A program made the position numbers and the translations under genes. Source: an uncultured SAR86 cluster bacterium (GTDB lineage: Bacteria > Pseudomonadota > Gammaproteobacteria > Magnimaribacterales > D2472). From it: a DNA stretch of 64,000 nt. The stretch is taken from contig CACJCN010000001.1 in NCBI GenBank assembly GCA_902591925.1, positions 177,794 to 241,793 of the forward strand, in the 5' to 3' direction. Each line of letters begins with the position of its first letter. Position 1 is the first letter of the stretch. Below, piece after piece: positions 11,378 through 19,120 of the stretch. The notes below the pieces were generated by a model. The model searched no databases and was not told the origin of the DNA. It saw only the letters and a program-made list of their open reading frames with translations.

Positions 11378-12039
11378 TGATACAAACCGTGCATGTAATT
11401 AGCCAAGGCATCTATTTCATTATCTGTGAGATTGGCAGCAATTGATTGCATTACCAATGATGCCTCACCTGCATTTCTTTCTTTAGATCTATATGCTTTT
11501 AAAGTAGATGTTAGGTACCCTACTTGCTGTCCAGCTACAGAAGGGTAGCCAGCTAAACTGTTTCCTTGACCATAAATAGCATGACATGACGTACAAGCAG
11601 GAATTTGTTTCTTAATATTACCAAATCTATATAACTGAGTCCCAAGAGCTAGAAGATCATCATCATTTTTAGCTTGTCCTGTAGTACTTTTATATTCAGA
11701 GTAATAAGCAGCTATATGCTTCAAATCATTATCATTTAAAGTTTGTAAATATGGAGTAACTGACATCATCAAAGCATTCATTCTATCTCCATCTCTAAAA
11801 TATTTAAGTTGTTCATATAAATATCTCTGATTTTGTCCAGATAGCTTTGGCCAATCTGTGCTGATGCTATTGCCATCAGCTCCATGACATGCAGCACAGG
11901 AGTCTACTAATTTAGCTCCAATAGTTGCATCACCAGAAACAAAAATTTCTGGCAATTCTATTTCTTTAGTTTTATCATCTGCGGCATTTATGCCAGCTGA
12001 TAAGATAAAAGATATAAAAAATATTAATGAATACTTCAT
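11374..12039 (-). CDS. Diheme cytochrome c4
   Basis: A periplasmic electron carrier with two c-type haem domains: CAACH at residues 48-52 and CTSCH at 149-153. Each is followed by a later methionine ligand candidate (SVTP and QSIA regions). The signal peptide covers about residues 1-19. The 221-residue length and two-domain repeat match cytochrome c4, which passes electrons from the bc1 complex to terminal oxidases. It is transcribed divergently from engB, with dsbA downstream. With the cox cluster 16 kb away it fits an aerobic chain. Confidence 0.93.
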   Translation of the reverse strand: MKYSLIFFISFILSAGINAADDKTKEIELPEIFVSGDATIGAKLVDSCAACHGADGNSISTDWPKLSGQNQRYLYEQLKYFRDGDRMNALMMSVTPYLQTLNDNDLKHIAAYYSEYKSTTGQAKNDDDLLALGTQLYRFGNIKKQIPACTSCHAIYGQGNSLAGYPSVAGQQVGYLTSTLKAYRSKERNAGEASLVMQSIAANLTDNEIDALANYMHGLYQ

Positions 12040-17365: not shown

Positions 17366-17390
17366 TGTAGCATAACTACATCTTTTTATC
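17366..17390 (+). terminator. Weak intrinsic terminator after dsbB
   Basis: TGTAG-CATAA-CTACA forms a five-base-pair stem with a five-base loop just after the dsbB stop, followed by TCTTTTTATC. The T-rich tail suits Rho-independent termination, but the stem is short and AT-rich, so efficiency would be modest. Confidence 0.45.
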
Positions 17391-17427
17391 TTTCTAAACC
17401 GCTTTAATATAACAAATTTATAGATTG

Positions 17428-17456
17428 TTGACTTAATGATGCTTTAATTTTTTAAT
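17428..17456 (+). promoter_or_regulatory. Candidate sigma-70 promoter of pckA
   Basis: TTGACT and TTTAAT are separated by exactly 17 bases, a good match to -35 and -10 consensus. Transcription would begin near 17463. That leaves a leader of about 107 bases containing the long hairpin that ends just before the pckA ATG. Confidence 0.55.
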
Positions 17457-17482
17457 ACACTACATAATAATTCTAAATATTG

Positions 17483-17565
17483 CTAACGAATAAAATATTA
17501 TAGGTACATAATTATCACCTCAACATATATAATTATTCCCCCCAAGTACCTATAATATTTGTTAG
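17483..17565 (+). promoter_or_regulatory. Long hairpin in the pckA leader
   Basis: A perfect 15-base inverted repeat (AAATATTATAGGTAC at 17493-17507, complement at 17546-17560) encloses a second perfect 8-base repeat (ATAATTAT at 17508-17515 and 17529-17536) with a 13-base loop. A C-rich TCCCCCCAA is bulged on the 3' side. CTAAC/GTTAG extends the base across a five-base bulge. The structure ends four bases before the pckA start codon, and no normal Shine-Dalgarno is left between stem and ATG. It is therefore likely to control translation, as a cis-acting RNA switch, RNA thermometer or protein site. Alternatively the DNA palindrome is an operator. No known riboswitch class was recognised. Confidence 0.7.
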
Positions 17566-17569
17566 TAAT

Positions 17570-19120
17570 ATGAACACCCAACCAAATACCTCGGAAGCAC
17601 TAATCTTGAGCAATGAAGAGCTTATACAAGAAGCTGTAAATAACGATGAAGGTGTTATTGCTTCTAATGGTGCATTTTCAACATCTACTGGAGAAAGAAC
17701 CGGAAGAAGTCCTAATGACAGATTTATTGTTAAAGAAGCAGGAACAAAAAATCTTATTGATTGGGGTGAAATTAACAAACCTTTTGAAGAAGAAAAATTT
17801 GATGCATTATGGAATAAAGTAGAAACATATCTAGCTGAAAAAAATAGATATATTTCTAACGTTCATGTGGGTTCTCATGATGAGCATTATTTGCCGGTGA
17901 AAGTTACAACAGAAACTGCGTGGCATTCTTTATTTTCTAGGCTTATTTTTGTAGCTACCGATGATTATAATCCGGCCAATAAGCAAGAGTGGCAGATAAT
18001 AAGTGCTGCTAATTTTGTTTGCGACCCCTCTGAAGACGGAACAAATTCTGATGGTTGTGTGATTATAAATTTTGCAAAAAGAAAAGTTATTCTTGCTGGT
18101 ATGAAATATGCAGGTGAAATGAAAAAATCTATGTTTTCCGTCCAAAATTTTCTTCTTCCAGAAAAAGGTGTTCTGCCAATGCATTGCTCTGCAAATGTAA
18201 ATTCTAATGGAAACGTAGCTTTATTTTTTGGTTTATCTGGTACAGGAAAAACTACGCTATCAGCTGATCCTAAATGTTCACTCATAGGAGATGATGAACA
18301 TGGGTGGAGCAAAGGCTCAGTTTTTAACTTTGAAGGCGGGTGTTATGCAAAAACAATTAATTTAACTGAAGAAAATGAGCCTGTAATTTATAAAGCTATC
18401 AAACATGGAAGTGTTATAGAGAATGTTTTTATAAATGAAGATGGCACGCCTGACTATAGTAATACTTCGCTTTCTGAAAATGGAAGATGTTGTTATCCAA
18501 GGTCTCACATTAAAAATGCTGTTGACAGCAATGCAGCTGGCGAGCCAAAAACAGTCATTTTTTTAACTTGTGATCTTACAGGTCTTATCCCTCCTGTCTC
18601 ATTATTATCTAAAGAAGCAGCCGCGTATCACTTCTTGAGTGGATATACAGCTAAGGTTGGTTCAACTGAAATGGGATCTGGATCTGATATAGAATCAACT
18701 TTTTCAACGTGTTTTGGGGCACCGTTTTTTCCTAGGCCTGCAAATGAGTATGCAGACCTTTTAATGGAGCGCATAGAGGGTTTTAATTCTAAAGTTTTTC
18801 TTGTAAATACCGGTTGGACTGGAGGCCCTTATGGAGTAGGAACTAGATTTAAGATACCCACTACGAGAAGAATTGTTAATGCAATTCAGGATGGTGAGCT
18901 TGATAATGTTGAAACAACAACTCTTCCTGGATTAAATTTATCTGTGCCCTTAAAAGTTGATGGAGTAGATAGTGAATTACTAAATCCGATTAATACATGG
19001 AAAAATAAAGACGAATACAAAAAATATCTTTCAGAATTAATTACAAAATTTCAAGAAAACTTCAAAAAATTTAATGCAAAACCTGAAATAGTAAAAGCTG
19101 GTCCAGGGTTTAATGACTAA
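17570..19120 (+). CDS. pckA: ATP-dependent phosphoenolpyruvate carboxykinase
   Basis: PckA turns oxaloacetate plus ATP into phosphoenolpyruvate, the entry step of gluconeogenesis from TCA intermediates. The 516-residue protein is the ATP type, with P-loop [14 protein letters not shown] near residue 222, metal-binding GDDEHGWS, and the substrate motif [13 protein letters not shown] near residue 45. [12 protein letters not shown] lies in the C-terminal domain. The ATG follows a long inverted repeat with no visible ribosome-binding site, so its translation is probably regulated. gshA starts inside the stop region with an 8-base overlap. Confidence 0.97.

Follow-up and report, generated by a model that had tools for sequence, protein, structure and literature searches.

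In the surface ocean, SAR86 ranks with the most abundant groups of bacteria, and the switching between glycolysis and gluconeogenesis in these small-genome bacteria is poorly understood. In one SAR86-cluster genome (G000, 1.2 Mb), a long hairpin fills the space directly before the start codon of pckA, raising the question of whether it acts in the RNA, as a leader of the pckA mRNA, or in the DNA, as an operator. The window analyzed here is a 64,000-nucleotide stretch of that genome; an earlier examination of its letters (the sequence-only reading) had favored cis-regulation of translation, with an operator palindrome as the alternative. As described below, in one SAR86 genus the pckA mRNA probably has at its 5' end a nearly constant hairpin in which the site for ribosome landing is hidden, and this hairpin is probably a previously undescribed RNA lock or switch.

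Structure and identity of the hairpin

The hairpin lies between dsbB (PF02600) and pckA (PF01293, E 8e-193), both assigned by profile match. Two perfect inverted repeats, one of 15 bp (17493-17507/17546-17560) and one of 8 bp (17508-17515/17529-17536) that encloses a 13-nt loop, a one-sided C-rich bulge of 9 nt (TCCCCCCAA, 17537-17545), and a basal 5-bp extension (CTAAC/GTTAG, 17483-17487/17561-17565) were all present as the sequence-only reading had described them. The element is bigger than first noted, as the basal pairing in this genome zips past CTAAC/GTTAG to the start codon. Folding of the RNA from 17463 to 17600 gave a single hairpin of 13 + 13 + 8 bp spanning 17477-17571, with a predicted 5-nt bulge (AUAAA) on the 5' side in addition to the C-rich bulge on the 3' side (Table 1). 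Its minimum free energy was -27.5 kcal/mol, compared to -11.9 +/- 2.8 kcal/mol for shuffled sequences (z = -5.6; 0 of 200 shuffles as good). Judged as a riboswitch would be, the hairpin RNA has a single dominant fold, and the leader 5' of it is unconserved. Among the 100-nt stretches of the window ranked by G+C-corrected structure, the hairpin is second; the top rank is held by 11920-12020 (-29.1 kcal/mol, minus strand), close to the start of a minus-strand gene.

Table 1. Features of the pckA upstream region (window positions)
Feature	Position	Strand	Basis or remark
Operator TGTAGCATAACTACA, 15 bp, HexR/RccR type	17366..17380	+	Palindrome in most family genera; 62 bp before -35 box
Promoter P1, TTGACT-17 nt-TTTAAT	17428..17456	+	Family-wide geometry; shared with aceA, pntA, cadherin-like gene
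CACTACA at P1 start (placed from spacing)	17458..17464	+	Resembles operator half-site; CTACA genus-invariant, family-conserved
Outer stem, 5' arm	17477..17489	+	Fold; conserved part CTAAC 17483-17487; compensated and wobble changes
Middle stem, 5' arm	17495..17507	+	Fold; arm of the 15-bp repeat begins at 17493; genus only
Inner stem, 5' arm ATAATTAT	17508..17515	+	Fold and alignment
Terminal loop with invariant CCTC	17516..17528	+	Alignment
Right-half motif TATATAA-N18-TATAAT, candidate P2	17526..17556	+	-10 box 17551-17556, 13 nt before ATG
Inner stem, 3' arm ATAATTAT	17529..17536	+	Fold and alignment
C-rich one-sided bulge TCCCCCCAA	17537..17545	+	Near-invariant in genus
Middle stem, 3' arm GTACCTATAATAT	17546..17558	+	Invariant in 25 sequences; TACCTATAAT kept where 5' arm lost
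Outer stem, 3' arm	17559..17571	+	Fold and alignment; extends into ATG in G000
pckA, ATP-dependent phosphoenolpyruvate carboxykinase	17570..19120	+	PF01293

An Rfam search at the gathering score gave no match in the window, in agreement with the earlier statement that no known riboswitch was recognizable; at E <= 10, there were only two chance matches to microRNA models, located downstream (E 5-8). Within the library of papers searched, nothing relevant turned up on a pckA leader RNA or on a SAR86 riboswitch at pckA. Several other identities were rejected. No terminator-like site was found and no U run follows the stem, which argues against an intrinsic terminator or attenuator. In many species, no stop codon interrupts the frame that runs through the hairpin (a 22-residue peptide), but this frame is without a start codon, and L011, L018, and others differ by 1 to 2 nt, so that an upstream coding extension was dismissed. 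A leader peptide was discarded because the leader contains no ATG, and a replication origin because the GC skew makes no clear turn at the element.

Distribution and conservation among SAR86 relatives

The pckA gene was found in 90 of the 107 genomes of the family. The paired arms are kept in full upstream of it in 27 of the 30 same-genus genomes having pckA. When 203 genomes of the order (22 genera) were searched with a covariance model of the hairpin, 28 matched, all of them in this genus, which includes SAR86A, and all at pckA; the hairpin was not found in the other 21 genera, and the only further signals were weak reverse-strand echoes of the same palindrome. Each genome carries one copy, ruling against a dispersed repeat or mobile hairpin, and when GTDB genomes were scanned for exact copies of the 5' arm plus part of the loop, 26 records came back, with one match each. 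Degenerate forms were also seen: in L019 and L022, the inner stem is missing, the middle stem has 7 to 8 bp, and the outer stem is largely kept; L020 (G056) retains no more than the 3' half plus both inner octamers. In the pckA tree, the genus forms one branch (support 99), with L020 nested inside a clade of hairpin carriers. Other genera have a shorter, unstructured pckA leader, with no general excess of structure.

Mean column identity within the genus is 0.94 to 1.00 for the arms, inner stem, and bulge, against 0.62 for the upstream spacer and 0.83, 0.90, and 0.61 for pckA codon positions 1, 2, and 3. The 21-bp core, the loop, and the C-rich bulge are thus more conserved than the first and second codon positions of pckA; most of the loop and bulge is invariant, and the spacer and third codon positions vary nearly freely. 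In the alignment of 25 sequences, 12 of the 13 middle-stem pairs show no variation at all. This degree of core conservation exceeds what pairing alone would require.

The evidence for pairing comes from the outer stem, where 96.4% of the cells in the 25 sequences are paired and two pairs show double changes. No slid control and not one of 500 shuffles matched its covariation score. An outer-stem C-G pair is replaced by A-U in L045 and L050, and the divergent L019 has TTAAA/TTTAA in place of CTAAC/GTTAG, which amounts to two further double changes. Among the variable pairs, we counted 23 G-U cells in five pairs and no A-C cells; since A-C is what a wobble on the antisense strand would give, wobble is tolerated on the sense strand only. 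These observations indicate that the sense RNA is the strand that folds and that its pairing is under selection. Taken alone, the count of pairs in which both partners changed is unexceptional (72 of 500 shuffles), and the case for pairing therefore rests on the sum of the signs. As for the expected compensatory changes upstream of pckA in relatives, they were found in the outer stem but not in the 21-bp core, which has no compensatory change and a single wobble; being invariant, the core is uninformative on selection for pairing.

The upstream promoter and its putative regulon

A promoter was found where the sequence-only reading had placed it, with TTGACT (17428-17433) and TTTAAT (17451-17456) separated by a 17-nt spacer. 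Our simple promoter scanner missed this promoter (P1) because its rule admits only an A as the second base of the downstream hexamer. In most genera, pckA is preceded by the same arrangement of operator, 62 bp, TTGAC, 32 bp, and CTACA (genus g3 and single exceptions aside), and the 32-nt distance from TTGAC to CTACA holds in nearly all family members. The pattern TTGAC...CACTACA also precedes three other genes in this genome, namely, isocitrate lyase (aceA, identified by NF005074), a cadherin-like lipoprotein gene, and the gene for a protein that we take to be PntA from its sequence. The operator lies 51 bp upstream of TTGAC at aceA and 61 bp upstream of it at the PntA gene, and the lipoprotein gene is preceded by an operator with one mismatch. 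Besides the pckA promoter (window 17366-17464), these promoters lie at G000:C2:85613-85700, C3:187951-188049, and C6:74054-74151 (L163, L164, and L166). A further pattern match (L165) and a perfect HexR consensus at G000:C3:201120 fall inside coding regions and were taken as chance. A terminator was also considered for the TGTAG...CTACA palindrome after dsbB; a U run is missing behind it in most relatives, and an operator is the better reading.

The operator TGTAGCATAACTACA is near-identical to TGTAGTAAAACTACA, a sequence identical in every letter to one of the RccR sites at aceE in Pseudomonas, where RccR also targets aceA, pckA, and pntAA (PMC5489143). In the SAR86 genome, central-carbon genes are preceded by the palindromic TGTAR-N5-YTACA operator, and an RpiR-type regulator is encoded as well. 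Only one HTH_6/RpiR-type regulator was found in this genome, a protein of 281 residues (G000:C5:31659-31883; L143:889-1734, minus strand) whose best match is the HexR model at 228.5 bits, below the cut-off of 296, making it a candidate RccR-like regulator. Together, pckA, aceA, pntA, and the cadherin-like lipoprotein gene would form a small RccR/HexR-like regulon in which the layout of the promoter is rigid. It is very likely that P1 is genuine and is controlled by a regulator of the RccR/HexR kind; the hairpin would then be part of the pckA transcript made from it. At aceA, the leader is short and lacks a hairpin.

The 3' half of the hairpin and a possible internal promoter

The two halves of the hairpin differ in their distribution. 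The 31-nt right half occurs at the same place without any hairpin in genus g4 and in part of g9 (shuffle P <= 0.008), and it is also kept in L019, L020, and L022; the left half was not found outside the genus. The C-run of the bulge is partly retained in some species that have no hairpin, and the right-half motif is absent from genera g5 and g6. The right half therefore appears to be older than the hairpin and to have a role of its own, with the left arm as its later complement; if so, the core would not be expected to covary. A constraint independent of pairing, missed by the sequence-only reading, thus seems to act on the 3' half.

Our guess is that the 3' half doubles as a start-proximal promoter, P2. 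TATATAA-N18-TATAAT, with its fixed spacing, occurs once in the genome. In the window, ACCTATAAT is no commoner than expected (26 matches against 24.9), so the -10 box alone means little. TATAAT lies 13 to 16 nt before the ATG in all hairpin carriers and 7 to 15 nt before it in several other genera. Several genes of the window also have TATAAT-like boxes 8 to 25 nt before their ATG. At pckA, no Shine-Dalgarno sequence is visible, in line with the earlier remark that none remains outside the hairpin, but only 16 of the 61 predicted genes of the window have such a sequence. The boxes and the scarcity of Shine-Dalgarno sequences hint that short-leader mRNAs may be numerous.

Proposed function and alternative readings

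The reading that we consider most probable, with some reserve, is that the hairpin is a cis-acting leader that keeps the long transcript, the mRNA from P1, from being translated. Transcribed from P1 within a HexR/RccR-type central-carbon regulon, the pckA mRNA would start with the hairpin leader, which would swallow about 20 nt before the AUG and, in G000, part of the AUG itself. The long transcript would then be translated poorly, or only once the hairpin had been opened or removed, and the invariant CCUC of the loop and the C-rich bulge may be the sites for an opener, be it a protein, a small RNA, or a ligand. Less confidently, a transcript from P2 would start within the 3' side of the hairpin and escape the lock. 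In support of a leader, the hairpin is found across species at a single gene, with the promoter on its 5' side and the start codon on its 3' side, and the predicted unpaired probability of positions -20 to -1 in the P1 RNA is 0.002; both transcription of the hairpin and the block of initiation are deduced from such sequence features. The earlier proposal of a cis-acting leader is thereby upheld as to the conserved upstream promoter, the genus-wide hairpin, the covarying base, and the sense-only wobbles. Against a lock, the invariant core would not be explained by pairing alone, and the hairpin is confined to one genus. Moreover, if the hairpin merely blocked translation, the retention of P1 would need another reason.

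A doubtful but possible extension of the leader model is that promoter choice sets the output: P2 would give a near-leaderless, translatable mRNA and P1 a hairpin-locked one, so choosing P1 would lower pckA output. The position of TATAAT before the ATG fits this, as do the few Shine-Dalgarno sites in the genome and the predicted accessibility of the AUG, which is 0.83 in the P2 RNA and 0.28 in the P1 RNA. L020, which sits among the carriers in the tree, lost the operator, P1, and the 5' arm and kept TATATAATTATCAANCCCAAATACCTATAAT, the TATATAA...TATAAT half, which makes it a natural test case for a second promoter, although its genome is incomplete and the motif contains an N. P2, however, has no consensus -35 box at the right distance and was not called by the simple scanner, and g5 and g6 lack the motif. 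We consider it unlikely that the two promoters form a nested switch, in which an upstream complement of the internal promoter silences the outer mRNA and the inner mRNA is translated; with the outer mRNA folded on itself, promoter choice would set translation without a ligand.

It is equally improbable that the element is a DNA operator, with the arms serving as two sites for a dimeric or looping protein that regulates a promoter close to the start codon or stops RNA polymerase on its way from P1, and with the RNA fold incidental. Such a protein would account for the invariance of the core arms and bulge beyond pairing and for the conservation of the right half outside the genus without any hairpin, and the starts of the arms are separated by 42 bp (GTAC to GTAC) and those of the inner octamers, each palindromic, by 21 bp. 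Yet the inner and outer repeats do not share a center of symmetry, owing to the 9-nt one-sided bulge, L025 has 2 bp extra between the arms, and no other copy of the 22-bp half-site occurs within three mismatches in the genome. Nor would an operator lead one to expect outer-stem compensation and strand-specific wobble, and the operator alternative of the sequence-only reading falls short on these points.

Somewhat less probable still is an RNase III substrate or mRNA stabilizer, where processing or shielding of the 5' end would set mRNA lifetime instead of translation start; a near-perfect helix of >30 bp would suit either role, but neither requires an invariant loop, bulge, and arm sequence. 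An RNA thermometer, whose melting would free the start region that is predicted to be masked, is very improbable, as the unpaired probability of -20 to -1 is predicted to stay at <=0.002 from 4 to 37 C; this closure, which speaks against the temperature control suggested earlier, argues for a lock on the long transcript.

With a lock on the P1 transcript as the preferred reading, a near-invariant, genus-wide pckA leader on an RccR/HexR-type promoter would be a specific control point in central carbon metabolism, and the hairpin would be a structured RNA class absent from Rfam.

Comparison with known systems

The RccR/HexR regulon of Pseudomonas and other Gammaproteobacteria has the same 15-bp operator type (TGTAGTAAAACTACA), the same targets, pckA, aceA, and pntA, and likewise an RpiR-type regulator (PMC5489143). 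The likeness concerns the SAR86 promoter and not the hairpin, and it is incomplete at pckA, where Pseudomonas has a 29-bp RccR site and SAR86 the 15-bp type (PMC5489143).

As for the hairpin, it shares with translation-gating leader RNAs (riboswitches and leaders controlled by proteins or small RNAs) a conserved structure directly before one metabolic gene, a start region that adjoins or lies within the 3' arm, and invariant unpaired nucleotides. It differs from them in having no Rfam match, a core without covariation, a distribution limited to one genus, and no alternative structure or known ligand. In Escherichia coli, pckA is controlled by CsrA. This gene is mentioned in a review of the Csr system (PMC3856055). 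The E. coli case provides a precedent for posttranscriptional control of the same enzyme, although the unpaired parts of the SAR86 hairpin are C rich and without a GGA motif of the CsrA type. Overall, cis-acting leader RNAs are a known kind of element, and what is unusual here is that the core is invariant and that its 3' half appears to be older than the hairpin itself.
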